From positions 1 through 25,301 of IMG/VR virus record IMGVR_UViG_3300047560_001111: DNA of 25,301 nt. One strand, given 5' to 3'. The first letter of the stretch is position 1. Each line of letters begins with the position of its first letter. This DNA comes from a virus. The notes under the pieces were generated by a model. It was not told the DNA's origin. It saw only the letters and a list, made by a program, of their open reading frames with translations, and made no database searches. This document shows, one piece after another, positions 2,192-24,938 of this stretch. Made by a program: the position numbers and the translations under genes.

Positions 2192-2580
2192 TGTAGATTC
2201 CTCAGTTTATCGGCGATATCAAGATCAACCAATATCTCTTCCTGTCTTATACGGTATTTATTAAACGAGATAGTTAATCTCTTAGGCATATAGTTTAAAA
2301 AGATAAGGATTGTCTTTAAAAGTGGGTAATCATCGGGGTCAACTTTAAAGAAAAGCATGTTGACCGTGGGTTCTACACCAAAGACATTGGAGAGGATGAT
2401 CACATGGTTTAGGATCAGCCTCTCCTTAAAGTCTCCAGTTTGTCTATACTTTCTCAACAACCTTTTGACATACTTTAAACGCTTTAGGTCCTCCTCAAAT
2501 TCACTTGTAATAATATGTGGTTTATCATAGGCCTTGGCAGCATATATCAAAAAGTTATCATCATTTAGATCATCAAACAT
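2188..2580 (-). CDS. Conserved T4-like phage hypothetical protein (DUF7207-like)
   Basis: The 130-residue protein, beginning MFDDLNDDNFLIYAAKAY, resembles a small protein family common in T4-like cyanophages that is, from memory, catalogued as DUF7207; its function is unknown. It is mostly helical in appearance with alternating charged and hydrophobic residues and no membrane segment. Its ATG overlaps the stop of the 667-residue gene upstream as TAATG, and its own stop overlaps the next ATG (ATGA), so translation is probably coupled on both sides. Confidence 0.75.
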   Translation of the reverse strand: MFDDLNDDNFLIYAAKAYDKPHIITSEFEEDLKRLKYVKRLLRKYRQTGDFKERLILNHVIILSNVFGVEPTVNMLFFKVDPDDYPLLKTILIFLNYMPKRLTISFNKYRIRQEEILVDLDIADKLRNLQ

Positions 2581-4583
2581 TACACCTTAACGTATCTTGT
2601 GGCGTCAAACTTATCTTTGGCAATACGAAGAACCTTACGAGAAGGATCATTCTTTCTTGTTACTTGAATGGTTTTTGATTCACCTTCAACACCAAGACCC
2701 GCTTTTACCTGGGTAGAAACCTTACGTTTCATGGTACGAAAAGCAGATGCTTTCTTGATAGAACCCATGGCCTCGTCCATTTGATCCTCATTCACCTTGG
2801 ACTTTTCTGGATGCATACCGTAATAGGCACCTAGAGCCATCTTCTGACGTTCTTTGGTAGATTTACCTTTGAACTTTGGATCTTTTGAATGAACAAAGTC
2901 GGAGATAACTTTACCAGCGGACATACCTTTGGTTAGTTTCTCTTTAAGGTCACGGTTTCTTTCAGCCTGAGGATTACCTGGTGTAGATGTATCAAGTTTC
3001 TTTTCAACATCATCAGGAGCAACTCTGCTGGTAGATTTTGGACTCATAGGATAGATTGTCTGTTGCTTGGACTCGCCACCTTGAGGTGCTTTACTAACCA
3101 TTGTCATACCACCCTGACCAGTACCAATCTCTTTAGCAATAGTATCAAAGTCTTTACGATTAGCAAAACCGGGAGTTAGTCTGTCACCTTTTTCTTCCTT
3201 GACATGCTTCTTCTTTAACTTGTTCATAATACCATGCTTGATCTTACGAGTATGTTCGTTATCATCTTTATAACCAAAGTCTGGCTTTGAATAATCTCTC
3301 TCCCTAGGACGGAGGTAGACATCAGAAGATGAAGCATCACCCTGACGGATCTTTGATCTGCCAAGTTGCCCCTTACGCTTATCACCATACTTAGAAGCAT
3401 TTGGATTATCTTTACCTAGGCGACCAGCAACATCAGCACGGTGCTTGGTACCATGGGCCTTGTTATAACCCTTAATAGCACTTTTGATAGCACCCATTGT
3501 TTTATCGTCGCCTTTTTTAACATTGGCAACAAAACGGTCGCTCATTCTTGCTTCATCAACCTGTTCTTTCTTTTCAAAAGAACCATGCTTTGAATACTCA
3601 TTGCTGTCTTTGCCATAACCATGACGGCGAGCCATTGACTTTAGTTGTTCTTCTGATTTACCAGCGAACTTCTTAGCCTTTTCTTCTGGTGTCATGTTAG
3701 CGATGCGCTGTTTATGCTTGATAACAGAAGCGGGCATACGGGTTTCATCTACTCTTTTAATTTCAGTGCGATGTGGATCATAAGCAGGTGAACCAGCCTT
3801 CATTCTTTCAGCAGATGATTTATATGTTACATCCGAATGAAATACATTTGGGTGACCTTCCCTATTCTTGGCAACGTCACCCATGGTTTCTGGTGCTTCA
3901 TCTAAACTTTTTCTTTGGCTTGTTGCCACTGCCTTCTTGGTGCTTGGTGATCTACCTTGATTGCAGTCACAGTCACCTATTGCAGTATGTGGTTCTTCTT
4001 TAGGGGCCATAGCCTTTGCGATGGCGGCGGCGTCCGCGTCGGTCAATTCGTCGATCGCCAGAACCTCGCGCGCGCGACGCTTGAGGCGGCGGTATTCGGC
4101 ATCTTCCTTCATAACAATCTCTGCCATGTCTAGAAGTCTGTCTAGTTCCACCTTGTCAACAATTCTGGCCATTACCTTGAACATACCACCCGTTGAAAGA
4201 ATAGATGGATCAACGGATGTGAATGACACCAATGATGGTGACATATTATACTGAAGGAAGAGGTAGTAGGTTGCTGGAACCTCGTTGATAAACTCTCCCT
4301 GATCGGTCATACCCATCTTATGTCCGAACTGCTTAACTTCAAATACTTCCACACCCTTGTCACCGTCCAAGAATTTTCTTGGCATAGTGATATGGAACTG
4401 TGAAAGTAGTTTTGAAATGCGGTTATAAACAACATAAGGGGTAACTGCTGGCTGTGCAGTAACGCTGGTTAGTGCAGCATTAATGGAAGCCATAACAGTT
4501 GGATTGCGTAGGTCGATACTACCATCCTTAACTTGAACGGATGGTAGTACCTCTTCACTTATAAAATTACGGAATGATTTCAT
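2580..4583 (-). CDS. Large, mostly disordered virion-associated protein (T4-like phage type)
   Basis: The 667-residue product starts MKSFRNFISEE, a leader type common in T4-like phage proteins. Residues 1-150 look folded. Residues 160-192 are an Arg/Ala-rich helix encoded by an anomalously GC-rich DNA patch. From about 195 onward the protein is Lys, Ser, Asp and Gly rich and low in hydrophobics, with scattered short motifs including VAGRLGKD (385-392) and a late segment around 553-595 (SDFVHSKDP, then KSTKERQKMALGAYY). I know comparable segments in cyanophage hypothetical proteins, but not a function. AAGGAG lies nine bases before the ATG. The stop overlaps the next start. Confidence 0.8.
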   Translation of the reverse strand: MKSFRNFISEEVLPSVQVKDGSIDLRNPTVMASINAALTSVTAQPAVTPYVVYNRISKLLSQFHITMPRKFLDGDKGVEVFEVKQFGHKMGMTDQGEFINEVPATYYLFLQYNMSPSLVSFTSVDPSILSTGGMFKVMARIVDKVELDRLLDMAEIVMKEDAEYRRLKRRAREVLAIDELTDADAAAIAKAMAPKEEPHTAIGDCDCNQGRSPSTKKAVATSQRKSLDEAPETMGDVAKNREGHPNVFHSDVTYKSSAERMKAGSPAYDPHRTEIKRVDETRMPASVIKHKQRIANMTPEEKAKKFAGKSEEQLKSMARRHGYGKDSNEYSKHGSFEKKEQVDEARMSDRFVANVKKGDDKTMGAIKSAIKGYNKAHGTKHRADVAGRLGKDNPNASKYGDKRKGQLGRSKIRQGDASSSDVYLRPRERDYSKPDFGYKDDNEHTRKIKHGIMNKLKKKHVKEEKGDRLTPGFANRKDFDTIAKEIGTGQGGMTMVSKAPQGGESKQQTIYPMSPKSTSRVAPDDVEKKLDTSTPGNPQAERNRDLKEKLTKGMSAGKVISDFVHSKDPKFKGKSTKERQKMALGAYYGMHPEKSKVNEDQMDEAMGSIKKASAFRTMKRKVSTQVKAGLGVEGESKTIQVTRKNDPSRKVLRIAKDKFDATRYVKV

Positions 4584-6965: not shown

Positions 6966-6987
6966 ATAATATAATCCTATTATTTAG
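6966..6987 (-). promoter_or_regulatory. Candidate late promoter CTAAATA followed by small hairpin
   Basis: On the minus strand CTAAATA (6987-6981) overlaps the TAA of the upstream gene and lies 43 bases before the next ATG. It is followed by the inverted repeat ATAATA/TATTAT (6966-6971 with 6978-6983). T4 late promoters share the core TAAATA. Confidence 0.5.
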
Positions 6988-8983
6988 CTTTCTTAAATTT
7001 CTTCTTACCGAATATTGAACGTTTTTCATCATCAGCCGCTGCCATGTTAGGACGAACATCGTCATTTCCGGTGGTAGCAGGAACTGTCCCGCTACCTGGG
7101 TCAAACGGGTCTGTTAGACTTTCAATTCTGACCAACTTTTCAGCAGTCTCTTTCATTTTCTGTTCTGAAAGAGAACCATAACGTGCTTTGAAACGCTTTT
7201 TGGTTTCTTCACTTTGCATCCAGCGATCTAGTCTCTGTCTGCTAATCTGTCTATCAAGTCCATTGGTATCAATGCTCTGATTATCACCGAATCCAGGACT
7301 CTTTGGTAGTCCTGCTTCGTCACCAATTCTGTCGCCACCAATAGGTGCCGCAGATTGGCCTCTTGCAATTTTCTGTTTCAATTCTAATACTCTCATAGGT
7401 TTGGGTGGACCAGGTTCCTGACCTGGGGTATCTTTAGCATATCTGTCTGTTAGTTTCTGGGTTGCCCAGTTACCTGCACCACCAACCAATATCTTTCTAT
7501 TGTTATTGGAGAAATCTGTATATCCCTCCAACATAGACTGGAACTTACGATCATTATCAGTCGTAACAAATTCATCAATCTCGGAAGTTACCGAGTCAAT
7601 TAACTTTTGATATGTTTCCTGAATAACTGTTTCTGATTGGTTTAGGTCTAGGTCATTCTTGACCTCGATGACCTTTTCAAATAACTGGTCGTATTTGTTT
7701 AGTGCGTCTTGTGCATCTTTCCACTTACCAAAGCGGATACCTTCTGAAATGACACGACCTTTACCAGCACGAGCCTCGTTTCTTAGTTTTGAAACCTCGT
7801 TACTGGTATTAACAAACACCATAATTGTTTTATAACCTCTGGCATCAAGTGACTCCTTGATACCCTTTACTCTATCATAATCGAATGAACCATTAATAAC
7901 CACATTACCTTCTAATGTGGACTTATGGAACTCGTCCGCATTTATCTCCGAGAAACCACAAGGTAGAATGGCCTCCTTCAAAATCTTATCTTTGCCGGAA
8001 CCAGGGGTACCGGCGAGAATGATTGCCTTTTCGGTCACATACTGCATATCAAAGTAACCTGGATTCAAACTACCATAATAACGCATAACCTTACCTGCTT
8101 CGGAATTGGCCTCGTTCTCAATCTTAGAACCAGTGGCACCTTCTTTAGCAATGTTCTTACCTAGTCTTCCGTCTAGGTTCTGTTTATGGTGCACCAACTC
8201 ATGTGCTACTGAACGGAAGATATCCATAGGGTGACGGTTCTTGGTGCTGATATACACCTGCTTTGTACCTGGTGAGTATGCAGCAAACGAAGGCTGACCC
8301 TCTCCTTTGTCATCCTTATAGTGAATGGTAGGTTGTTCGTCAATACCAAGATGATCACAAGTGAAGTCAACAAAGGACATTAACTTCTCATGGAAATCTT
8401 TGCGAGATATTCCTGTAGAAACATCTTCCCTTAACTGTGATCTGGTTGCCGAGAATATCTTCCGTGCCAATGATTTGTCTCTGGCAGCGGATGCCTTGGC
8501 AAAGGTAGCAAAGTCACCCTTGCGGACGGCCGCACGAAGGTCTGTACCTGAAATACCTTTCTTGCGGGCACCAGATGATACGACCTGAAAATTCTTGAAT
8601 GGATAATTAATCTTTGGATTAAAGTCTTTGGCAGTCTTTGGTTTGACATACTTACCAAGTGATCTGGAAAACTCTACTACACGGTCATCACCGACCACAA
8701 AGGTAACATCTTCGTAACCTTCATCTGCTAGTTTCTTACAAATAGCAAAGGCGGTATTCATCCTTGGGTCATCCACAAAGTTTACACCAGGGAAAATCTG
8801 GCGCAGAAAGGCCATCTTCTCTCGTGGTGACAGAGGATTCTTGGTTGGGTCGTGTGATTGGGAGGTATAAATTCGGTGTTCGGCACCAGTTCTCTGGGCA
8901 TACTTTACCGCATACATTATTAGTTCGGCATGGCCTACGGTTGGTGGGTTATAACGGCCAAATGTGAATACAATCTTTTTCAT
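6980..8983 (-). CDS. Fusion: nucleotidyltransferase, HExxH metallopeptidase-like and P-loop kinase-like domains
   Basis: This 667-residue protein has three recognisable parts. Residues 1-155 are a cytidylyltransferase/NMN-adenylyltransferase-like HIGH-superfamily domain, with GRYNPPTVGH at 9-18 and ISGTDLR at 144-150 as the nucleotide-binding signatures. Residues 190-305 contain HELVHH (261-266), a zincin-type motif. Residues 318-445 carry a Walker A, GTPGSGKDK (325-333), with a possible Asp (NADEF) downstream, as in small polynucleotide or nucleoside kinases. The tail is charged and low complexity. The substrate is unknown; cofactor salvage, nucleic-acid end processing or virion ejection are all possible. 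It starts with GAGGGAG four bases upstream and follows a candidate late promoter. Confidence 0.85.
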   Translation of the reverse strand: MKKIVFTFGRYNPPTVGHAELIMYAVKYAQRTGAEHRIYTSQSHDPTKNPLSPREKMAFLRQIFPGVNFVDDPRMNTAFAICKKLADEGYEDVTFVVGDDRVVEFSRSLGKYVKPKTAKDFNPKINYPFKNFQVVSSGARKKGISGTDLRAAVRKGDFATFAKASAARDKSLARKIFSATRSQLREDVSTGISRKDFHEKLMSFVDFTCDHLGIDEQPTIHYKDDKGEGQPSFAAYSPGTKQVYISTKNRHPMDIFRSVAHELVHHKQNLDGRLGKNIAKEGATGSKIENEANSEAGKVMRYYGSLNPGYFDMQYVTEKAIILAGTPGSGKDKILKEAILPCGFSEINADEFHKSTLEGNVVINGSFDYDRVKGIKESLDARGYKTIMVFVNTSNEVSKLRNEARAGKGRVISEGIRFGKWKDAQDALNKYDQLFEKVIEVKNDLDLNQSETVIQETYQKLIDSVTSEIDEFVTTDNDRKFQSMLEGYTDFSNNNRKILVGGAGNWATQKLTDRYAKDTPGQEPGPPKPMRVLELKQKIARGQSAAPIGGDRIGDEAGLPKSPGFGDNQSIDTNGLDRQISRQRLDRWMQSEETKKRFKARYGSLSEQKMKETAEKLVRIESLTDPFDPGSGTVPATTGNDDVRPNMAAADDEKRSIFGKKKFKKAK

Positions 8984-9007: not shown

Positions 9008-9094
9008 TTATTTAGTCTTTTCTTTTTCCCGTGCTTTCTTAACAATCTTCTTGATTGTCTTGACAACAGGTACTGGTTTCTTTTCTTTATCCAT
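9008..9094 (-). CDS. 28-residue Lys-rich peptide
   Basis: A 28-codon frame starts at the ATG at 9094, overlapping the upstream stop as TAATG, and ends with TAA at 9008. Eleven of its residues are Lys (MDKEKKPVPVVKTIKK and onward). The coupling and the conserved junction type argue that it is translated. I cannot assign a function; a nucleic-acid-binding or packaged peptide is possible. Confidence 0.55.
   Translation of the reverse strand: MDKEKKPVPVVKTIKKIVKKAREKEKTK
9009..9015 (-). promoter_or_regulatory. Candidate late promoter CTAAATA
   Basis: Minus-strand CTAAATA overlaps the TAA of the 28-residue gene and lies 26 bases before the ATG of the nucleotidyltransferase fusion. The TAAATA core matches T4 late promoters. 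Confidence 0.45.
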
Positions 9095-10332
9095 TACTTA
9101 CCCCAGTTCTTTACTGCTAGGAAGTTTGCTCTGCTAAACTCCATTCTATCTACCAGTTTAACAGCATCCCCGCCCGTGGACCAGGCAGCAACATATCCTT
9201 CTGGTGTAGTAACCTTGTAACCACCATCGGCAGTGTGTAAGAATGTGCCAAGGTCATTACACTGATTAAACTTATGAATAAGCAACATTTTAGCCTCAAC
9301 CAATATTCTCTGTAACTCAAATATCTTTTTGAGATTGGAGGCATGTTGACGATACCAACGTAGAACAATGTTTCTTTCGTTGATACGCTTTTGCTTGGTT
9401 GCTGCCATCTTAGCAGTTTCGATATTCTTGGTATATTTATCTCCAACCCACTTTATAAGTTCTGCGGTATATCCAGTTCCGTATGATTGACCAGCACGGA
9501 CTTTCTGGTTATTGAAAGTCATAATGTCAATACGGTATGTGGAGTTAGAAGCAATCTCATTTAGTAGTGAAGATGGAATGGTTCTGAATAGAGAACCGGC
9601 CTGTGACAGCAATGAGGTAAGTCTGGCATTCTCTGAACGGGTTAGCGTAGCACGACCAGTGACATCAGAGAACTTGTTTGATCTAAACCAAACGTTTCTA
9701 CTCTTTCTTAGCATAGAGATATCAACGTCAAAATGGGTCTGTAGTGTATCCATAGTCTTACCTTCGTAAGAGGTATGAAACACAATACCCATCTGTGCTG
9801 CTAATACTTCTCTGGCCATAGCAGAGTCAGCAGGTACGGCGTATGTAATAGTGTTTGGTCTGAAAGTAATATACTTCTTACCATCGATGGTTTCTGTTTT
9901 AAGATCAGACTTGGAGAACATAAAGTCACCATGAATGATACCTTTAATACCAAGTGCTGGTAGGTATTTCAATGCCTGTGATAGTTTCTCCGCTAGACCA
10001 CCGGAGTGGTTAGCACGAATGTCGGCCTCGGTATAATTCAGTTTGGCATTCTTAGCAAAGATGGATTTTGAACCAACAAAGAACTTACCATTCTCTGGAT
10101 TGATACCAGCATATAGAGCAGGAGCACCATCAAACTTGGTACGAAGAATAAGCGACTCTGATAGCAGGTCTTCCTCGGACTTTAGAGCAAACATATCTTT
10201 CAGAGAGATTAGAAAGTTGATTGCGTTACGAGTGCCTGCAACACCACCTTCCAACACCGCATCTTCAATGTGGGTTAGATGGCGATCCTTCTCGGCTGCT
10301 GCCTCTTTGAGGTATTGATTGAGTCTAATCAT
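9094..10332 (-). CDS. DUF6267-like protein with nucleotidyltransferase (ligase/capping-type) motifs
   Basis: The 412-residue protein starts MIRLNQYLKEA, then RHLTHIEDAVLEGG, as in the T4-like phage family I recall as DUF6267. It shows ordered motifs of the covalent nucleotidyltransferase superfamily: KFDGAP at 66-71 (motif I, K66 the candidate nucleophile), GKFFVGSKS near 82-90, and IHGDFMF at 133-139 in the position of motif IV (E replaced by D). DNA/RNA ligases and mRNA capping enzymes use this arrangement to form enzyme-NMP adducts. Ligase activity is an inference. Its ATG overlaps the upstream stop (TAATG at 10332) and its stop overlaps the 28-residue gene. Confidence 0.85.
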   Translation of the reverse strand: MIRLNQYLKEAAAEKDRHLTHIEDAVLEGGVAGTRNAINFLISLKDMFALKSEEDLLSESLILRTKFDGAPALYAGINPENGKFFVGSKSIFAKNAKLNYTEADIRANHSGGLAEKLSQALKYLPALGIKGIIHGDFMFSKSDLKTETIDGKKYITFRPNTITYAVPADSAMAREVLAAQMGIVFHTSYEGKTMDTLQTHFDVDISMLRKSRNVWFRSNKFSDVTGRATLTRSENARLTSLLSQAGSLFRTIPSSLLNEIASNSTYRIDIMTFNNQKVRAGQSYGTGYTAELIKWVGDKYTKNIETAKMAATKQKRINERNIVLRWYRQHASNLKKIFELQRILVEAKMLLIHKFNQCNDLGTFLHTADGGYKVTTPEGYVAAWSTGGDAVKLVDRMEFSRANFLAVKNWGK

Positions 10333-11621
10333 TATGATACCTTTATGCTATTGAATTTGATGGCCAAATTATACCCCTGTGCTACCTTATTATTAGGTGG
10401 AACAGCATTAGAACGGACAGCCATGTTCATAGTAATGGTTTTATCTTTTGACTTTAGGTCAATATGCCAATTCTGTTTAGAAGTCTTAGAAGCATAAGCC
10501 GTAATACTTGTAACTTGTGGTAAGAAGTTTTCAATAGAGTTTTCATCGGTGATGAAGGTATAACTCTTTGATAGACCTTTAACCACGATCAAAGGTACCG
10601 ATTGTTCTTTTTTAATGATCTGCGTTTCAATATACTTTTTGGATACCGCCAAATCTTTGTTGAAGGCAGCAATGATTGCCTGTCTAATCATTTCAAGCAT
10701 CTTATCATAAAGTGCCTCATATTTAACATTATGCTGTTTTTCAAATGCTGATATGGTTTTGACGGCAGCAGGTTTGTTGTTTCTTTCTTGCCAGTCAGAG
10801 GTCAGGCCTAGTGTGGCATGAACCTTCTTATACACGTTGTCTATCAGTAACTTCTTATCTTCCGCATATCCTAGATCATCAAACATCTTACCGACATAGG
10901 TGTTTAACTGTGGTTCTTTTGATGAAACCGATCCTGCTTTTACGGATACACCTAACATACCACCACCAGAAAATTCAACAAAGATATCTCCCTTGTGTGT
11001 GTTAGGAACTCCTTTTGGCTTTGATCTGTAACCCCAATATAGTTTTTTGATTGGTACTTCTTTGTTCTTTTCCGAAAGGAACTGTAGAACACCCATTGCT
11101 GCTTCCATCTTCTCTTTATACTTGGAAGAGGAGGTCATTTGCTTGATGAACTTGGCACCAGCCTTTTGATCGTCATTAGTTACATACACACTGGTATCCG
11201 ACGATTCGCTGATGGATTTATAGAGTTGGTTGATATCTCTTACAACATTTCTTTGTCCAGGTCCATATCTAAGACCAGCATTGAAAGCAAGAATAGGTAC
11301 AAGTTCTGTGATTGTGGAGTTTAGAGTTGTTTCTCCCATACCACCAGAACCAGCAGTAGGTTTGTATGATATTTTAATCGTATGACCTGTGAATAGGACA
11401 TCGGTTGTACCAATGCTTCCGCCGGATCCTTTGACGAACATATACCCAACTTTGTTGAGTTTCTTTTCAACATCTTTTTTGACATTGGCACGTTCTTTTG
11501 TTTCAGCACGAATTACCAACGATGTTGTTTTTGTAGACTGTGAAGCAATTTCATATGTATAAGGAGAGACCGTTTTTTTAAGTTCGGCCTCATCTTTTCT
11601 TGTGATCGCAGTTATTGGCAT
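10332..11621 (-). CDS. Conserved phage protein, possible PD-(D/E)XK-like fold
   Basis: The 429-residue protein is of a type I associate with T4-like phage hypotheticals. A segment HKGDIFVEFSGGGMLGVSVKAG (209-230) has Asp212, Glu216 and Lys228 on adjacent predicted strands, which is loosely like a PD-(D/E)XK nuclease core, but the canonical ExK is SVK here, so the assignment is weak. The gene starts 32 bases after a CTAAATA element and its stop is coupled to the DUF6267-like gene, so the two probably act together. Confidence 0.75.
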   Translation of the reverse strand: MPITAITRKDEAELKKTVSPYTYEIASQSTKTTSLVIRAETKERANVKKDVEKKLNKVGYMFVKGSGGSIGTTDVLFTGHTIKISYKPTAGSGGMGETTLNSTITELVPILAFNAGLRYGPGQRNVVRDINQLYKSISESSDTSVYVTNDDQKAGAKFIKQMTSSSKYKEKMEAAMGVLQFLSEKNKEVPIKKLYWGYRSKPKGVPNTHKGDIFVEFSGGGMLGVSVKAGSVSSKEPQLNTYVGKMFDDLGYAEDKKLLIDNVYKKVHATLGLTSDWQERNNKPAAVKTISAFEKQHNVKYEALYDKMLEMIRQAIIAAFNKDLAVSKKYIETQIIKKEQSVPLIVVKGLSKSYTFITDENSIENFLPQVTSITAYASKTSKQNWHIDLKSKDKTITMNMAVRSNAVPPNNKVAQGYNLAIKFNSIKVS

Positions 11622-17275: not shown

Positions 17276-17737
17276 TTACAAACTTGGAAATTTGTCTGCT
17301 GCAATGGATGCCGCCCAAGCAGATGGTTTAACCTTAGGCGTAACACCAGTCATGCCTTTGATATATCCCATTGCTTCATTGATTACACACGATGAACCAT
17401 GCTTAAAGTCTGGGTTGATATCGATATGAACTTCATACTTTCTATCACCAATAGACTCGGCCAAGTCCAAATACATTTGTGCTGCCTTCATTACCTCATT
17501 CATAAGTCTCATACGAGGCTTATCACGAGATTGATCATAGTCACGTTCGGTAACAATCTCACCAAAAATCTTAGCACCTCGGTTACCATCATAATGGACA
17601 ACAACTACGGTTGCGTAGTCTGCCCACCAAATACCATGTCGCTTGTGTCTTTCCGAATCTGCACCGATGTAAATGTGGGTGGACTCGGAGGTATTTTCGA
17701 TAAAGTCTCTGACTTCATCCAAGTCCAACCTCTTCAT
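17276..17737 (-). CDS. YkuK/DUF458-like predicted RNase H-fold protein
   Basis: The 153-residue protein has IYIGADSE (22-29) at the position of an RNase H-like first strand, HIDINPDFKHGSS (about 104-116), and a C-terminal INEAMGYIKGMTG...KPSAWAASIAAD, which matches the bacterial YkuK (DUF458) family. That family is predicted to have an RNase H-like fold, but no activity is established that I know of. The acidic residues D27, D106 and D149 could form the metal site. It is two bases downstream of the AdoMet decarboxylase homologue. Confidence 0.82.
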   Translation of the reverse strand: MKRLDLDEVRDFIENTSESTHIYIGADSERHKRHGIWWADYATVVVVHYDGNRGAKIFGEIVTERDYDQSRDKPRMRLMNEVMKAAQMYLDLAESIGDRKYEVHIDINPDFKHGSSCVINEAMGYIKGMTGVTPKVKPSAWAASIAADKFPSL

Positions 17738-20796: not shown

Positions 20797-20871
20797 TGGA
20801 TCGGGGACTTGGACTCGAACCAAGAACGATGGACCCAGAAACCATAGTTTTACCAATTAAACTATCCCCGA
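20797..20871 (-). tRNA. tRNA-Gln(CUG)
   Basis: Cloverleaf with U1-A72, as expected for Gln, T73 and encoded CCA. Anticodon loop TTCTGGG gives CTG. Positions 31 and 39 are both T, a mismatch closing the anticodon loop. Last tRNA of the array. Confidence 0.82.
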
Positions 20872-20879
20872 ACAAAATT

Positions 20880-20963
20880 TGGTGCCGAGAGTAGGGTTCG
20901 AACCTACCGTGCTATAAGCGTCCGATTTACAGTCGGGTGCCCGTCCACTCAGGCGGTCTCGGC
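20880..20963 (-). tRNA. tRNA-Tyr(GUA)
   Basis: Class II tRNA with loop CTGTAAA (anticodon GTA), long variable arm, A73 and encoded CCA. Confidence 0.93.
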
Positions 20964-20967
20964 ATAA

Positions 20968-21041
20968 TGGTTGTCCCTGAAGGTATCGATCCTTCGTCTA
21001 TCGCTTATCAAGCGATTGCTCTACCTTTGAGCTAAGGGACA
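20968..21041 (-). tRNA. tRNA-Ile(GAU)
   Basis: Anticodon stem ATCGC/GCGAT with loop TTGATAA (GAT); acceptor TGTCCCT/AGGGACA, A73, encoded CCA. Its first base directly follows the stop codon of the gene at 21042-21230. Confidence 0.92.
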
Positions 21042-21230
21042 TCAACTCTTTAACTTTAGACCAGTCAACGGAATGTCGTAACATTCCATCGACACAATCT
21101 TATAAACTCCTGAACTCATAGCAATGAAACTTTCAACATCACTCCAATTTAAGAATGCCGTTTGGTATGTATTGCTACCATCCTTGATAAACACTATATA
21201 CTGTTTGCCTTCTTTTGTCAAGTCAATCAT
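21042..21230 (-). CDS. 62-residue hypothetical protein
   Basis: The ATG at 21230 has AAGGAG seven bases upstream and follows the HAD gene by one base. The product (MIDLTKEGKQYIVFIKDGSN and onward) is a small alpha/beta protein without membrane segments. The frame is open further upstream but only by overlapping the HAD gene. The stop ends at the first base before tRNA-Ile, so message and tRNA precursor are probably co-transcribed and separated by RNase P. A promoter-like sequence (21193-21221) lies inside the gene. Confidence 0.75.
   Translation of the reverse strand: MIDLTKEGKQYIVFIKDGSNTYQTAFLNWSDVESFIAMSSGVYKIVSMECYDIPLTGLKLKS
21193..21221 (-). promoter_or_regulatory. Promoter-like sequence inside the 62-residue gene
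   Basis: TTGACA (21221-21216), 17-base spacer, TATAGT (21198-21193). It would drive tRNA-Ile, -Tyr and -Gln separately from the rest of the array. It overlaps coding sequence, so it could be chance. Confidence 0.55.
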
Positions 21231-21231
21231 A

Positions 21232-21696
21232 TCAAAACTCCTTACGAGACTGGTTACACTCGAAAGTATACCAGCCTTCGGCACGACAGGCATCGATGAT
21301 ACGGTGACGATCATCAAACATCGCACCAACAGTATAACCAGGATTAGCAGCAAGCCAATTCTTGATAATCGCAACCTTCAAAAGGTCATCATTACCACGA
21401 AAGCCGAAAGGACGCATATACATATCATCATGCGACATCCACGGGATATGCTTATTGACCCACTCTAAAGTGGCCTCACGGAACCGTTCATCACGAGCCG
21501 TAACGATAATCACCTTATCACCCGGACGATCATTAGCCAAAGCGTGTAACACATCGATTACAGGCTGATAAGGCTCATCCAAATGCTGCTTTGAAAAGAA
21601 CGCATCCCATTCCTTTTTACCATTATCAAGATGGTGCATACGATGTTCGTTATCAGCAAGAGTGCCGTCAATATCAAAAATCCAAACCTTATTCAT
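21232..21696 (-). CDS. HAD-superfamily phosphatase (polynucleotide phosphatase-like)
   Basis: The 154-residue protein starts MNKVWIFDIDGTLADNEHRM: Asp8 and Asp10 of DxDGT are the HAD nucleophile and acid/base. VIIVTARDERFR supplies the motif II Thr, a downstream Lys motif III, and AMFDDRHRII the acidic motif IV. It resembles the phosphatase half of T4 polynucleotide kinase (PseT) and related phage HAD proteins but lacks a kinase domain. T4 Pnkp repairs tRNAs cut by host anticodon nucleases, and this gene lies inside a tRNA array, which makes such a role attractive but unproven. Start chosen from AAAGGA upstream and the motif position. Confidence 0.85.
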   Translation of the reverse strand: MNKVWIFDIDGTLADNEHRMHHLDNGKKEWDAFFSKQHLDEPYQPVIDVLHALANDRPGDKVIIVTARDERFREATLEWVNKHIPWMSHDDMYMRPFGFRGNDDLLKVAIIKNWLAANPGYTVGAMFDDRHRIIDACRAEGWYTFECNQSRKEF

Positions 21697-21721
21697 TCCT
21701 TTTCCTTTCACATTATGTCTA

Positions 21722-21750
21722 ATCCTATCACATTCGAAAAGGAATGTCAA
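21722..21750 (-). promoter_or_regulatory. sigma70-type promoter for the HAD gene
   Basis: TTGACA (21750-21745), 17-base spacer, TAGGAT (21727-21722). It begins five bases after the tRNA-Thr CCA end and gives a leader of about 20 bases. Confidence 0.7.
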
Positions 21751-21755
21751 GTAAA

Positions 21756-21829
21756 TGGTGCCGGTTAACGGAATCGAACCGCTATCAGAGGACTACGAAA
21801 CCACTGTAATGCCATTATACTAAACCGGC
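21756..21829 (-). tRNA. tRNA-Thr(CGU), probable
   Basis: Acceptor GCCGGTT/AACCGGC, A73, CCA encoded. Anticodon loop TTCGTAG gives CGT. As in the Gln tRNA, positions 31 and 39 are T-T, so the identity is a little less sure. Confidence 0.75.
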
Positions 21830-21834
21830 GTAAC

Positions 21835-21909
21835 TGGTGCCGCAAGTAGGAATTGAACCTACGACCTTTCCCTTACCATGGGAATGCACTACCTCTGTGC
21901 TATTGCGGC
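21835..21909 (-). tRNA. tRNA-Thr(GGU)
   Basis: Stem TTCCC/GGGAA with loop ATGGTAA (anticodon GGT); A73 and CCA encoded. Confidence 0.92.
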
Positions 21910-21912
21910 GAA

Positions 21913-21986
21913 TGGTACTGGGACTAGGTATCGATCCTAGGCTCCGGACTCCACAAACCCGGGTGCTTCCATTACACTACCCCAGC
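21913..21986 (-). tRNA. tRNA-His(GUG), alphaproteobacterial type
   Basis: Loop TTGTGGA (anticodon GTG). Acceptor GCTGGGG pairs with TCCCAGT so that position 1-72 is G-U; the discriminator is A73 and CCA is encoded. There is no C73 to pair with an extra G at -1. Most bacterial tRNA-His require G-1:C73; this form is known from alphaproteobacteria. Confidence 0.88.
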
Positions 21987-21990
21987 AAAT

Positions 21991-22067
21991 TGGTGCCCTC
22001 GGTCAGATTTGAACTGACACTAAGTTGGGTTTGAATCAACTGCCTCTGCCAATTGGGCTACGAGGGC
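21991..22067 (-). tRNA. tRNA-Leu(CAA), probable, short variable loop
   Basis: Acceptor GCCCTCG/CGAGGGC, A73, encoded CCA. The loop TTCAAAC gives anticodon CAA with an A-C closing mismatch. The variable region is only about five bases, unlike ordinary class II tRNA-Leu, so the charge identity is less certain. Confidence 0.7.
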
Positions 22068-22068
22068 A

Positions 22069-22144
22069 TGGTGCGTCCCCTTAGAATCAAACTAAGTCCT
22101 TCGGTACTTCAAGCCGACGTGCGGATCACCTACACCAGGGACAC
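22069..22144 (-). tRNA. tRNA-Phe(GAA)
   Basis: Stem TCGGC/ACCGA with loop TTGAAGT (anticodon GAA). Acceptor GTGTCCC with one G-U pair; A73 and CCA encoded. Confidence 0.87.
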
Positions 22145-22149
22145 ATAAA

Positions 22150-22224
22150 TGGTGCTCATATCCGGATTTGAACCGAACTCTACACCTTGAGAGGGTGTCG
22201 TCCTGACCACTAGACGATACGAGC
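22150..22224 (-). tRNA. tRNA-Glu(CUC)
   Basis: Stem ACACC/GGTGT with loop CTCTCAA (anticodon CTC); A73, CCA encoded. Confidence 0.92.
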
Positions 22225-22396
22225 ATAATAAGTGAGGATGAGGCTCCCAACCCCTTGCCTGCTGCTCCTCAACAGCGCCCTCTCTCCTGCAAATCCTAGA
22301 CAGTCACGAATAGGACCGAGAGGCATGACTTGCGCCGAGCCGATGGAGACTAACCCACCCAGGCATTATTTCGGCTACAGAGGTCACGGCGACCTT
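22225..22396 (-). ncRNA. Structured non-tRNA RNA within the tRNA array
   Basis: 172 bases between tRNA-Glu and tRNA-Ala with no cloverleaf. Three consecutive hairpin domains are visible: TGAGGA/TCCTCA (22233-22238 with 22266-22271); CCTCTC/GAGAGG (22279-22284 with 22318-22323) enclosing TCCTA/TAGGA (22294-22298 with 22311-22315); and an 11-pair helix with a ten-base bulge (22333-22343 with 22371-22376 and 22387-22391). I infer a stable RNA processed with the tRNAs. The long open frame crossing it also crosses tRNAs and is not a gene. Confidence 0.5.
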
Positions 22397-22472
22397 TGGT
22401 GGACGTGAGAGGACTTGAACCCCCAACCTTCTCCGTGCAAAGGAGTTGCGCTCCCAGTTGCGCCACACGCCC
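22397..22472 (-). tRNA. tRNA-Ala(UGC)
   Basis: Anticodon loop TTTGCAC (TGC); acceptor GGGCGTG/CACGTCC with one G-U pair, A73, CCA encoded. Confidence 0.9.
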
Positions 22473-22476
22473 ATAT

Positions 22477-22551
22477 TGGCGACCCGTAGGGGTATCGATC
22501 CCCTCTCCCTAGCGTGACAGGCTAGAGTCCACACCTGCTGACTCACGGGCC
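22477..22551 (-). tRNA. tRNA-Asp(GUC)
   Basis: Stem CTAGC/GCTAG with loop CTGTCAC (anticodon GTC); G73 as expected for Asp; CCA encoded. Confidence 0.93.
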
Positions 22552-22561
22552 ATTTAAACTT

Positions 22562-22638
22562 TGGTGCGCCTGGCAGGACTCGAACCTGCAAAATCTGGTT
22601 TCTAAGACCAGCGCCTTTACCAATTTGACCACAAGCGC
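22562..22638 (-). tRNA. tRNA-Leu(UAG), short variable loop
   Basis: Stem CTGGT/ACCAG with loop CTTAGAA (anticodon TAG). The D-arm (GTGGTCAAATTGGTAAAGGC) is Leu-like, but the variable region is only ATTTT, so this is a class I shape. A73, CCA encoded. Confidence 0.88.
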
Positions 22639-22644
22639 ATATAT

Positions 22645-22719
22645 TGGTGCGGAATGATGGAATCGAACCACCGACACCCTGCGTGTAAAACAGGTGTTCT
22701 GCCATTGAACTAATCCCGC
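22645..22719 (-). tRNA. tRNA-Val(UAC)
   Basis: Stem CCTGT/GCAGG with loop TTTACAC (anticodon TAC); A73 and CCA encoded. Confidence 0.92.
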
Positions 22720-22724
22720 ATAAC

Positions 22725-22810
22725 TGGCGGATAAGTGAGGTCTCGATCCCCAAGCCTCTCGGCTCCTTTCGTTTTCGAAACGAAGGCCAGTCCCACTGAC
22801 TTACTTATCC
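22725..22810 (-). tRNA. tRNA-Ser(CGA)
   Basis: Class II. Stem TTCGT/ACGAA with loop TTCGAAA (anticodon CGA), long variable arm, G73, CCA encoded. Confidence 0.93.
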
Positions 22811-22816
22811 ATAAAC

Positions 22817-22905
22817 TGGCGGAGTAGTAGGTATCCGACACCTATTCCCTTTCGGGAACCATCCGCTTTCCAAGCGGTGCAGACTCCTTGCCTGTTACTT
22901 ACTCC
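22817..22905 (-). tRNA. tRNA-Ser(GGA)
   Basis: Class II. Loop TTGGAAA (anticodon GGA), long variable arm (TTCCC...GGGAA), G73, CCA encoded. Only one base separates it from the next tRNA. Confidence 0.93.
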
Positions 22906-22906
22906 G

Positions 22907-22994
22907 TGGCGGAGGGCGACGGTCTCGATCCGCATACCCCTAAGGATACCCTTGGTTTAGCAAACCAGGACAAGTCCCACCTGCTTCACCCTCC
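22907..22994 (-). tRNA. tRNA-Ser(GCU)
   Basis: Class II. Loop TTGCTAA (anticodon GCT), long variable arm, G73, CCA encoded. Confidence 0.93.
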
Positions 22995-22995
22995 G

Positions 22996-23109
22996 TTACT
23001 GACTCATTAAAATATTAATATCACTTACAATGAATCCTACCACAATAGCGATAGCAAAGAACACAACAAGCCGAAAGATTGCCTGCATTTTCAACTGTTC
23101 TCTATCCAT
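22996..23109 (-). CDS. 37-residue membrane microprotein inside the tRNA array
   Basis: The frame from the ATG at 23109 to the TAA at 22996 encodes 37 residues: a short charged N-terminus (MDREQLKMQAIFR) and one hydrophobic segment (LVVFFAIAIVVGFIV). GAAGGTGA lies about seven bases upstream. The stop ends one base before tRNA-Ser(GCU). No family recognised; it fills a stretch with no tRNA, which supports it as a gene. Confidence 0.65.
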   Translation of the reverse strand: MDREQLKMQAIFRLVVFFAIAIVVGFIVSDINILMSQ

Positions 23110-23128
23110 ATCTGTCACCTTCTCTAAA

Positions 23129-23204
23129 TGGTCTGGGTAGCTGGACTTGAACCAACAACCTTCCCGCCCCAAACGGGATGCTCTACCAATTGAGCCATAC
23201 CCAG
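23129..23204 (-). tRNA. tRNA-Pro(UGG)
   Basis: Stem TCCCG/CGGGA with loop TTTGGGG (anticodon TGG); acceptor CTGGGTA/TACCCAG, A73, CCA encoded. Confidence 0.93.
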
Positions 23205-23211
23205 ATTATAC

Positions 23212-23287
23212 TGGCACTTCGCTGAGGACTCGAACCCCACTAACGGGTTTTGGAGACCCGGACATCGCCCCTAAATGCTTGCGAAGC
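23212..23287 (-). tRNA. tRNA-Trp(CCA)
   Basis: Stem CGGGT/ACCCG with loop CTCCAAA (anticodon CCA); G73, encoded CCA; acceptor with a G1-U72 pair. Confidence 0.92.
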
Positions 23288-23292
23288 AAACT

Positions 23293-23367
23293 TGGGTGCG
23301 GACCAAGGAATCGAACCTCGCTCTCTTGCTTATGAGACAAGAATGGTCACCAGACCACCTGACCGCA
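23293..23367 (-). tRNA. tRNA-Met or tRNA-Ile2 (CAU), first copy
   Basis: Loop CTCATAA (anticodon CAT). Acceptor T1-A72, C73, CCA encoded. It lacks the initiator GGG/CCC anticodon stem, so it is an elongator Met tRNA or a lysidine-modified Ile2 tRNA; sequence alone does not decide. Confidence 0.85.
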
Positions 23368-23375
23368 ATAACTCT

Positions 23376-23450
23376 TGGTGCTGATAGTTGGAATCAAACC
23401 AACCTTTAAAGCCTTATGAGGACTCCTCGACATCTTGCCGACCTACCAGC
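23376..23450 (-). tRNA. tRNA-Met or tRNA-Ile2 (CAU), second copy
   Basis: Loop CTCATAA (anticodon CAT), stem GAGTC/GGCTT, acceptor GCTGGTA/TATCAGC, A73, CCA encoded. It differs from the adjacent CAU tRNA throughout, so the two probably serve different amino acids. Confidence 0.87.
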
Positions 23451-23458
23451 ATTATATA

Positions 23459-23528
23459 TTAGTGGCTGTTGACACATGCTCCCATTTAACCTATCGGCCC
23501 TAAATCAATAAACGATAGGCACCACTAA
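23459..23528 (-). ncRNA. Two-helix structured RNA in the tRNA array
   Basis: A perfect seven-pair outer helix (TTAGTGG/CCACTAA, 23459-23465 with 23522-23528) encloses a perfect seven-pair inner helix (CCTATCG/CGATAGG, 23490-23496 with 23513-23519). Two bases separate the helices on one side and 24 on the other. No T-arm or anticodon arm can be drawn, so it is not a normal tRNA. Confidence 0.5.
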
Positions 23529-23530
23529 AC

Positions 23531-23612
23531 TGGCCTCCACGGCAGGAGTCGAACCTGCATTTTCGTTCCAGTTACCTTACTCGACGTTCGTAGCGCCGGC
23601 GGATACGTGGAG
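23531..23612 (-). tRNA. tRNA-like element, possible Arg(ACG), D-arm missing
   Basis: The acceptor CTCCACG/CGTGGAG, G73, encoded CCA and T-arm (GCAGG-TTCGACT-CCTGC) are intact. A plausible anticodon arm, CGGCG-CTACGAA-CGTCG, gives ACG. Only seven bases remain where the D-arm should be and the variable region is about 22 bases. It may be an aberrant but functional tRNA, or a decaying one. Confidence 0.5.
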
Positions 23613-23753
23613 ATAAACTGACGATAACTATTCGGCTCTGATCGTCTCGGCGCATGATTGTTCAAACCACGTCCGCAGTCCGACACTCCCGAACTTGTTA
23701 TCGTAGATGGGTCTCTCAACCCACTGGACCTTTATTGCTACAAGGTCTAAGTT
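23613..23753 (-). ncRNA. 141-base structured spacer RNA
   Basis: Between the tRNA-like element and tRNA-Gly, three helices are visible: ACGATAAC/GTTATCGT (23621-23628 with 23697-23704), TGGGT/ACCCA (23708-23712 with 23719-23723), and GACCTT/AAGGTC (23727-23732 with 23742-23747). GACGAT/ATCGTC is an alternative to the first. No coding frame with a credible start is present. Confidence 0.45.
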
Positions 23754-23827
23754 TGGAGCGGATAGGTGGTACTGACCCACCTTCTTCACGTTGGCAACGT
23801 GACATAATACCTTTATACTATACCCGC
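23754..23827 (-). tRNA. tRNA-Gly(GCC)
   Basis: Stem TCACG/CGTGA with loop TTGCCAA (anticodon GCC). Acceptor GCGGGTA/TATCCGC, T73 as usual for Gly, CCA encoded. Confidence 0.92.
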
Positions 23828-23830
23828 AAA

Positions 23831-23906
23831 TGGAGGACTCACTCGGATTTGAACCGAGACCGCATGGGTTAAAAGGCCAGCGCACTACCTATTGTGCTAT
23901 GAGTCC
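23831..23906 (-). tRNA. tRNA-Lys(UUU)
   Basis: Loop CTTTTAA (anticodon TTT); acceptor GGACTCA/TGAGTCC; T-arm CTCGG/CCGAG; CCA encoded. T73 and a C-C pair closing the anticodon loop are unusual for Lys. Confidence 0.82.
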
Positions 23907-23910
23907 ATAT

Positions 23911-23986
23911 TGGTAGACCGTGAGGGATTCGAACCCCCGTCAAGAGATTAAGAGTCTCCTGCTAAAACCAACTCAGCTAACGGTCC
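23911..23986 (-). tRNA. tRNA-Lys(CUU)
   Basis: Stem GGAGA/TCTCT with loop CTCTTAA (anticodon CTT); A73, CCA encoded. Confidence 0.92.
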
Positions 23987-23993
23987 ATATAAT

Positions 23994-24068
23994 TGGTGAC
24001 CCCTAGGAGAATCGAACTCCTCTTACAAGATTGAAAGTCTCGTGTCCTAACCGATAGACGAAGGGGCC
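23994..24068 (-). tRNA. tRNA-Glu(UUC)
   Basis: Stem CGAGA/TCTTG with loop CTTTCAA (anticodon TTC); A73, CCA encoded. Confidence 0.93.
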
Positions 24069-24072
24069 GTAT

Positions 24073-24150
24073 TGGCTCGGCGGGTTGGATTCGAACCAAC
24101 CTCATTCTCGGTTAACAGCCGAGCGCACTCACCTAGAGTGCTACCGCCGA
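24073..24150 (-). tRNA. tRNA-Asn(GUU)
   Basis: Stem CTCGG/CCGAG with loop CTGTTAA (anticodon GTT); acceptor TCGGCGG/CCGCCGA, G73, CCA encoded. Confidence 0.93.
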
Positions 24151-24153
24151 ATA

Positions 24154-24290
24154 TTACTATTAGAAAGATACAGGTTTACTATATCTCGGTCGTGGATGCT
24201 TGCAATCAGAGCCACGATTGGAGATACAAGGTTTGGGCATCAGTTTTATCGGATCCTTGCCCGCACGAGCCTGTACCTTTCTAATAGTAA
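24154..24290 (-). ncRNA. Stable structured RNA closed by a 21-bp helix
   Basis: Arms at 24154-24174 and 24270-24290 are complementary over 21 bases. The only exception, 24168 with 24276, is A-C on the plus strand but U-G on the minus strand, so minus-strand RNA pairs throughout. Inside the 95-base loop are a two-part hairpin (24182-24187 with 24221-24226; 24190-24195 with 24212-24217) and GGGCA/TGCCC (24235-24239 with 24258-24262), giving a multibranched fold. It lies between tRNA-Cys and tRNA-Asn. Its size is close to that of T4 RNA C, a stable RNA of unknown function in the T4 tRNA cluster. Confidence 0.75.
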
Positions 24291-24291
24291 A

Positions 24292-24366
24292 TGGAGGTCT
24301 GCCTCGGAATTGAACCGAGTCCTCAAGGATTTGCAGTCCTGTGCCTTACCACCCGACCCGCAGACC
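24292..24366 (-). tRNA. tRNA-Cys(GCA)
   Basis: Stem CAGGA/TCCTT region with loop CTGCAAA (anticodon GCA); T73, a Cys identity base, and encoded CCA. Confidence 0.92.
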
Positions 24367-24390
24367 AGTTACTATAACCATATTCGATTG

Positions 24391-24591
24391 TCAAACAGCG
24401 TTTTTATACTCCTTATACTTACGCTGTATGGACACGGTGCCATGCGCTTTCAAACGAGTATAATCTCGGAATGCCGAGCCATCTTTATCGTGGTACTCTT
24501 TACGATAGTTTACCCGACCGTTACGGTCGGATGCCTCTACTATCCAAAAGTAATCTCGCTTAGTGTTTTCCTCTTTCATGTCTCGTCTCAT
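24391..24591 (-). CDS. Small hypothetical protein
   Basis: The protein has 66 residues from the ATG at 24591, or 62 from the ATG at 24579 (MKEENTKRDYFWIVEASD). It is rich in charged and aromatic residues and has no membrane segment. A sigma70-type promoter (24605-24633) lies just upstream, giving a leader of only about 7 or 19 bases depending on the start, so the second ATG is somewhat favoured. Function unknown. Confidence 0.75.
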   Translation of the reverse strand: MRRDMKEENTKRDYFWIVEASDRNGRVNYRKEYHDKDGSAFRDYTRLKAHGTVSIQRKYKEYKNAV

Positions 24592-24604
24592 TCAACAGTT
24601 GCAT

Positions 24605-24633
24605 ACTATATAGGCGCCGAAACACAAAGTCAA
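24605..24633 (-). promoter_or_regulatory. sigma70-type promoter
   Basis: TTGACT (24633-24628), 17-base spacer, TATAGT (24610-24605). It serves the gene at 24391-24591 and the downstream tRNAs from tRNA-Cys on. Confidence 0.8.
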
Positions 24634-24688
24634 CCACTTTTTTTGCGACAAAATGACGCACCCTTAATCTATTGACTTTGTAGTCTGT

Positions 24689-24829
24689 TTACATTCCAAA
24701 CTGGGCCTTAACAGTTGTCACAATGTCATCGATGACGGAATTTATTTCATCGTCCGTCTGTGTTAGTCCGAACTTATCCCGAAGGATGACAATAATAGCA
24801 TTTCTCGTTTCGTCTGTCAAGTTAAACAT
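24689..24829 (-). CDS. 46-residue hypothetical protein
   Basis: The frame from the ATG at 24829 to the TAA at 24689 encodes 46 residues (MFNLTDETRNAIIVILRDKF and onward), an amphipathic two-helix protein. GGAG is seven bases upstream. It lies between the first tRNA and the promoter at 24605-24633. No family recognised. Confidence 0.72.
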   Translation of the reverse strand: MFNLTDETRNAIIVILRDKFGLTQTDDEINSVIDDIVTTVKAQFGM

Positions 24830-24846
24830 TTTATACTCTCCTTTGT

Positions 24847-24938
24847 TGGTAGGGGATCCCGGATTCGAACCGAGTCGAGAACGCTAATCGGGCGCTGAAA
24901 GGCTTATAAGGCCTCCCTGTGTACCAACACCATCCCCC
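24847..24938 (-). tRNA. Atypical class II tRNA, anticodon reads UAU (Ile AUA)
   Basis: Acceptor GGGGGAT/ATCCCCT with a G1-U72 pair, A73 and encoded CCA; T-arm CTCGG-TTCGAAT-CCGGG. Stem GAGGC/GCCTT with loop CTTATAA gives TAT. It has a long variable arm (AGCGC/GCGTT) and a very short D-loop (GTGT-TGGT-ACAC), which do not fit ordinary tRNA-Ile, so amino-acid identity is uncertain. Confidence 0.72.

Follow-up and report, generated by a model that had tools for sequence, protein, structure and literature searches.

The DUF6267 gene of the window, by which we mean the whole 25-kb stretch of a virus record analysed here, very probably encodes a divergent member of the covalent nucleotidyltransferase (ligase/capping) superfamily. 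This assignment draws on a series of motifs that are invariant across the family and on predicted structures, in which the fold comes nearest to that of RNA ligases. That the protein also acts as a ligase is a step we take with less assurance than the superfamily assignment itself. The overall reading to which we give about half of our confidence is that of an RNA-ligase-type nucleotidyltransferase, which would seal breaks in nucleic acid, probably RNA, and would probably be packaged in the head in the window's group of viruses.

The DUF6267 gene

9094 to 10332, minus strand: DUF6267 gene, 412 amino acids, ATG at 10332

A DUF6267-like protein had been placed at these positions in the preliminary description, which gave no strand; the open reading frame is indeed found there, on the minus strand. 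On the plus strand, the frame in question is crowded with stops. In a Pfam scan of the 412-residue product, DUF6267 (PF19782) was the sole family matched, with 339.2 bits (cut-off 27) and an E-value of 5.1e-101, the alignment lying above the Pfam gathering score and spanning positions 2-374 of the 376 in the model. The protein also belongs to PHROG 455, which is listed as function unknown. Literature searches found no published work on DUF6267 under that name and, among work on cyanophage ligases, no earlier assignment of the gene as a ligase.

At the junction with the upstream gene, the stop codon of that gene and the ATG of the DUF6267 gene share nucleotides (TAATG). The DUF6267 gene is thus probably co-transcribed and translationally coupled with its upstream neighbor.

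Nucleotidyltransferase motifs

We examined conservation in an alignment of 75 DUF6267 sequences with identities down to 26%. The motifs and the large insertion between them are located as follows:

10126 to 10137, minus strand: motif I, K66-F-D68-G69, in 75/75 sequences, ending the strand formed by residues 61-66 of the model
10066 to 10083, minus strand: motif Ia, FFVGSK, with K89 invariant
9916 to 9933, minus strand: motif III, HGDFMF, with D136 invariant (75/75), in model strand 132-140
9766 to 9783, minus strand: probable motif IIIa region, VFHTSY, with H186 and Y189 invariant, assigned by position only
9253 to 9672, minus strand: helical insertion, residues 221-360, pI 10.1, between motifs IIIa and IV
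9190 to 9201, minus strand: motif IV, E378-G-Y-V (in PEGYVA), with E378-G379-[FY]-V381 in 75/75
9151 to 9162, minus strand: motif V, V-K392-L-V (in AVKLVD), with K392 in 75/75

Only 24 of the 412 columns are invariant, and they include K66, D68, G69, P71, F84, F85, K89 and D136 as well as E378, G379, V381 and K392. Six of the motif residues among them (K66, D68, K89, D136, E378, K392) are retained in every sequence, forms without the N-terminal tag described below included. Column shuffling, repeated 200,000 times, did not once place the ordered set K.[DHN]G...[DE]...EG.V...K on invariant columns. We presume K66, from its place in motif I, to be the nucleotidyl-lysine. The series as a whole reads KWDGAPA...FFVGTKS...EGYVAAWSTGGDAVKLV or EGYVMHKDGSMIKFV, the former motif IV-V sequence being that of the window protein and the latter that of S-CAM3.

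The preliminary description had taken KFDGAP (K66), GKFFVGSKS (K89) and IHGDFMF (D136) for motifs I, III and IV. All three are present, in this order and on invariant columns, but their labels are off by one step: they correspond to motifs I, Ia and III, and the true motifs IV (E378) and V (K392), 240 residues further on, had been overlooked. It is because EGYV and K392 occur there that we reject GKFFVGSKS as motif III and IHGDFMF as motif IV, and assign them to Ia and III.

The family departs from the usual pattern in two places. The acidic residue of motif III is Asp throughout, where most ligases have Glu, and the second lysine of motif V (KxK in ligases) is absent, position 394 being V or I in all 75 sequences. 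Together, these substitutions could entail an altered chemistry. Within the helical insertion, N275 and K348 are invariant and R279 nearly so, and either R279 or K348 might stand in for the lost motif V lysine; in the cyanophage short forms the insertion is much shorter.

Predicted fold

Structures of two members were modeled with AlphaFold2 without templates, and all that follows in this section refers to predictions, not to experimental structures. The model of the 412-residue protein reached a pLDDT of 88.9 and a pTM of 0.86, that of a natural 298-residue cyanophage short form 91.6 and 0.85. The predicted core comprises residues ∼15-220 and 361-406, interrupted by the helical insertion. Motifs I, III, IV and V lie on the expected strands, with K66 at the strand end where motif I belongs, as judged from the secondary structure of the model. 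Past motif V, the 412-residue model has a single helix (396-405) before the chain ends at residue 412, without an OB domain or a motif VI.

The preliminary description had proposed a fold comparison, and both models aligned best to covalent-nucleotidyltransferase ligases. In VIA-align, the top match was in each case the Naegleria RNA ligase, with Z 10.0 and 3.7 Å over 182 residues for the 412-residue model and Z 8.5 and 3.8 Å over 176 residues for the short form. T4 Rnl2 and Rnl1 both matched the former with Z 8.8, and the 50 PDB entries listed for each model were exclusively RNA, tRNA or DNA ligases. Z-scores of 8.5-10 are only moderately above the background stated for the tool. Capping enzymes were absent among the 50 entries listed, an absence that does not exclude them. 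The Foldseek E-values for both models were weak (0.07-0.09). Its lists also contained unrelated folds, among them carbonic anhydrases, but these had low probabilities and did not recur among the 50 VIA-align entries listed, and we set them aside. Foldseek searches against BFVD gave strong matches to DUF6267-like proteins only and were uninformative on function.

Sequence profiles did not lead to ligases: phmmer and hmmsearch against PDB and NCBIfam returned nothing significant, and HHalign comparisons with Rnl1 and Rnl2 profiles, built from viral contigs, stayed below 4% probability. As no profile method reaches ligases and the Foldseek matches are weak, the claim of a ligase-like protein rests on fold and motifs. 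The idea of the superfamily, as originally proposed, is thus supported by the predicted fold and by motifs I, Ia, III, IV and V; the motif numbering is not, and two of the five motifs had gone unnoticed.

Comparison with known ligases

The top structural match to both models, the Naegleria gruberi RNA ligase (Rnl5-type; PDB 6vt0, 5cou), shares with the window protein the KxD of motif I, the Glu of motif IV and the Lys of motif V. The PDB titles of its mutants name K170, D172, E227, E312 and K326, and the spacing between motifs IV and V is 14 in both proteins (E312-K326, taken from these titles, and E378-K392). The two nevertheless have only 7-11% identity, residues 1-142 of the Naegleria enzyme are unaligned, and its motif III has Glu227 in place of Asp136. 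The helical insertion of DUF6267 has no counterpart within the 197-residue aligned range of the Naegleria ligase.

T4 Rnl1 (gp63; PF09511), which reads KEDGS...LFKSKGS...EGYVAVMKDGSHFKIK, resembles DUF6267 in the KxDG of motif I, in the EGYV...K of motifs IV-V and in the Lys of motif Ia (K89, as in LFKSKGS), where Rnl2 has Arg. It matched the two models with Z 8.8 and 8.1, and similarity at the HMM level is nil. Rnl1 carries its extra sequence past motif V, whereas the additional helical part of DUF6267 lies between motifs IIIa and IV, and Rnl1 keeps both motif V lysines (FKIK versus VKLV). T4 Rnl2 (PF09414; Z 8.8, 2hvq) has the same motif order and the EGYV of motif IV, but differs in its KxHGxN motif I, the Arg in motif Ia, the Glu in motif III and an extra C-terminal domain. 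T4 gp30 and other ATP-dependent DNA ligases (PF01068) share KxDG and the core fold (Z up to 7.9); in contrast to DUF6267 they have an OB domain, and the two families co-occur in the phages G001, G003 and DLP6.

Since profile similarity and an OB domain were looked for and not found, we describe DUF6267 as ligase-like and do not file it under the Rnl1, Rnl2 or DNA-ligase families. The combination of RNA ligases as closest folds with a missing OB domain argues against a capping enzyme and also against a standard DNA ligase.

Probable capsid-targeting sequence

10303 to 10332, minus strand: N-terminal MIRLNQYLKE, a CTS-like propeptide in the register of T4 IPIII MKTYQEFIAE (positions 4, 7, 8, 10)

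The N-terminus of the window protein resembles the capsid-targeting sequence (CTS) of T4, for which experimental mapping has assigned positions 4 and 7 to targeting and positions 8 and 10 to processing (PMC9026906). We wrote this rule as a regular expression, so that the test operates at the level of sequence. As a control, ipII and ipIII, the products of which both begin MKTYQEFIAE, were the only T4 genes whose starts the pattern recovered; across five genomes, 6 of 3,771 internal methionines (0.16%) matched. In DUF6267, it matched 41 of 60 non-redundant long forms, with starts such as MKFTEYLTES, MYSFKQYLNEA and MIRLNQYLKEA, and none of 20 short forms. Isolates bearing the CTS include C48C1, Melnitz and DLP6. 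Cyanophage proteins without the CTS have N-termini (MPNKHLEH, MAKNLHLEH) that lie roughly at the point where a tag would stop. Among neighboring genes, the pattern was found in 11 of 33 cytidylyltransferases, in 7 of 12 HAD phosphatases, which PHROG 415 marks as PNK-like, and in 3 of 4 P-loop kinase matches, one of these being a cytidylyltransferase/P-loop protein.

With IPII and IPIII, DUF6267 thus has in common a cleavable-looking N-terminus with an aromatic residue or Leu at position 4, an aromatic at 7, I or L at 8 and E at 10; in the window copy, position 4 is Leu where the T4 proteins have Tyr. It differs from them in the enzyme-like fold of its mature part and in that its packaging is putative. 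On the strength of this N-terminal pattern, DUF6267 proteins bearing the CTS are probably loaded into the head and injected. Cleavage of the gp21 type, after L/I-x-E, would leave a processed protein starting at about A11. We know of no virion proteomics that detects DUF6267. Among the virion proteins of S-CREM2 (PMC10665884), the DUF6267 protein (gp87), a short form without the CTS, was not detected; the cytidylyltransferase is a virion protein both in this phage (PMC10665884) and in S-SM1 (PMC3037559).

CTS-like starts were also observed elsewhere. In the window, the gene at 2580-4583 (minus strand) encodes a 667-residue protein without a Pfam or PHROG match that begins MKSFRNFISEEV, and a gene of similar size in G001 starts MKTFLDYLNED. 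Two adenylate-kinase-family proteins directly downstream of DUF6267 (L182:1239-1823 and L183:9224-9799) have CTS-like N-termini, as do several small genes near DUF6267 at 57-68 kb of locus L085 (C48C1), which looks like an island of packaged proteins.

Genomic context

10332 to 11621, minus strand: upstream gene, PHROG 2496, function unknown, with the motif GDIFVEF..GVSVKAG
6980 to 8983, minus strand: downstream gene, one protein with an NMNAT-like cytidylyltransferase (residues 1-187), a metalloprotease-like HELVH stretch and a P-loop domain (Zeta_toxin/AAA_33, weak)
20797 to 24938, minus strand: array of 24 tRNA genes
21232 to 21750, minus strand: PNKP-type 3'-phosphatase (HAD_PNKP, PF25109, E=4.3e-19), inside the tRNA array

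A downstream cytidylyltransferase is conserved in 50 of 53 short-form DUF6267 loci and is fused to DUF6267 in S-PM2, where the two form a single 591-residue protein (L214:4998-6773). The upstream position is hypervariable, with 22 BLAST clusters among 171 genes. An [ILVM]-S-[LVIM]-K motif is present in 119 of these 171, as against 28 of 523 control ORFs, and this motif, like that of the window gene, may resemble the one of PD-(D/E)xK-type nucleases. A nuclease role for the upstream gene goes no further here than this suggestion, since its sequence diverges in many of the clusters and Pfam gives no match.

T4 mends cleaved tRNA with PNKP and Rnl1. The window has a PNKP-type phosphatase, which is also found in three close relatives (G001-G003; genomes of 165-174 kb with a T4-type portal), and in relatives PNK-like HAD and adenylate-kinase-like genes adjoin DUF6267. 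Since no Rnl1 or Rnl2 gene was found in the relatives, DUF6267 fits the vacancy beside PNKP. The phosphatase is a possible end-healing partner of DUF6267, and the tRNAs of the 24-gene array are possible substrates of the repair. In the cyanophages tested, no PNKP phosphatase scored above the cut-off; as it is absent or below the cut-off there, the partnership in RNA repair is not family-wide.

Two further observations concern the window. Many of the short ORFs within 20797-24938 look like translations of tRNA genes rather than proteins, and positions 17276-17737 (minus strand) encode an RNaseH_like protein (PF04308, E=1.4e-19; PHROG 11311, function unknown).

Distribution and alternative explanations

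DUF6267 is found in 464-471 phage records. Among cyanophages, it is nearly as frequent as UvsX (371, 61 and 24 records named Synechococcus, Cyanophage and Prochlorococcus, respectively, compared with 374, 61 and 24 for UvsX), and it often follows gp43-uvsX-gp41-mazG and precedes the cytidylyltransferase. We surveyed 15 phage genomes or large contigs that carry DUF6267 for four ligase families (PF01068, PF09414, PF01653, PF09511), with T4 as a positive control that matched all profiles except the NAD+ ligase family PF01653. None of the four was found in 12 of the 15; the other three (G001, G003, DLP6) had PF01068, the standard DNA ligase, only. The Rnl2 and Rnl1 families (PF09414, PF09511) were without a match in any of the 15, and PF01653 was absent from all 16 records tested. 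S-CREM2, searched for PF01068 alone, lacked it. In the cyanophages searched, DUF6267 was the only ligase-like gene found.

These data bear on the proposal that, in T4-like cyanophages, DUF6267 takes the place of the missing gp30 ligase of T4, joining Okazaki fragments and closing nicks left by recombination. A review of these phages reported no g30 homologue in cyanomyoviruses, allowing for a distant one that had escaped recognition (PMC2984593), and the frequency of DUF6267, its location near the replication genes in many cyanophages and the absence of the four families from the cyanophages and marine relatives searched all speak for such a replacement. We nevertheless consider it unlikely, as the nearest folds are RNA ligases, the OB domain is missing, DLP6 and close kin of the window virus have a standard DNA ligase as well, and the NAD+ ligase of the host could suffice. 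For the window itself, a simple account of a missing gp30 is weakened by the PF01068 ligases of G001 and G003.

The CTS-like N-terminus of most non-cyanophage members and the presence of the neighboring cytidylyltransferase in the virions of S-SM1 and S-CREM2 would also suit a head-packaged nucleotidyltransferase that, as infection begins, puts AMP or another nucleotide on some protein or metabolite of the host, much as T4 Alt acts by ADP-ribosylation. Such a modifier could dispense with the second motif V lysine and the OB domain, both of which serve in transfer to nucleic acid. Fold and motifs I-V are, however, of the polynucleotide ligase type, partners of the PNKP type speak for ends of nucleic acid as the target and, to our knowledge, the known protein AMPylators (Fic, DrrA and SelO types) have folds other than that of ligases, and we regard this role as quite improbable.

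RNA capping or 5'-end adenylation, by transfer of GMP or AMP or by use of NAD+ with the NMNAT-like neighbor recycling NMN, and in either case without sealing, seems very improbable to us: capping enzymes belong to the same superfamily, and the adjoining, in S-PM2 even fused, cytidylyltransferase would fit, but RNA ligases are the top structural matches and the model has neither OB domain nor motif VI past motif V. A head protein that retains the ligase fold but is catalytically dead or structural could explain the lost motif V lysine and the CTS-like start, yet is highly improbable given six motif residues invariant in 75 sequences down to 26% identity, CTS-less forms too. Chance resemblance of the motifs combined with an over-read model, to which the missing profile similarity, moderate Z-scores and weak Foldseek E-values would lend themselves, is highly improbable when two separately predicted members match only ligases among the 50 entries listed, and when motifs I, III, IV and V fall on the strands where they belong.

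Proposed function

In the preferred reading, that of an RNA-ligase-type enzyme, K66 would attack a nucleotide, ATP or perhaps NAD+, at its α-phosphate, giving lysyl-AMP, and the AMP would be handed to the 5'-phosphate of a nucleic-acid break, which would then be sealed. The helical insertion may grip the substrate, a task that falls to the OB or C-terminal domain in other ligases. For the viruses of the window's group, broken RNA such as tRNA would be the likeliest substrate, because of the 24 tRNAs, the PNKP-type 3'-phosphatase, the adjoining P-loop-bearing gene and the lack of a conventional RNA ligase in close kin. Most members outside the cyanophages would, by their CTS, probably be packaged in the head and injected; T4-like cyanophages would use an untagged DUF6267, often encoded in or near the replication cluster of a genome without a conventional ligase.

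A broader scenario, which we offer tentatively and hold to be doubtful, is that non-cyanophage T4-like phages load their heads with a nucleic-acid repair kit of DUF6267, PNK-like phosphatase, kinase, NMNAT-like partners and the hypervariable nuclease-like neighbor, several of them tagged, which would be injected to mend RNA or DNA before phage gene expression, and that the untagged cyanophage form is the ligase these phages were thought to lack.

A ligase-type reading gives DUF6267 a first testable activity. It reopens the question of a distant ligase in cyanomyoviruses (PMC2984593) and suggests that some T4-like phages may carry repair enzymes inside the virion. The family it concerns is near-universal in T4-like cyanophages, which are abundant among the viruses of the ocean.
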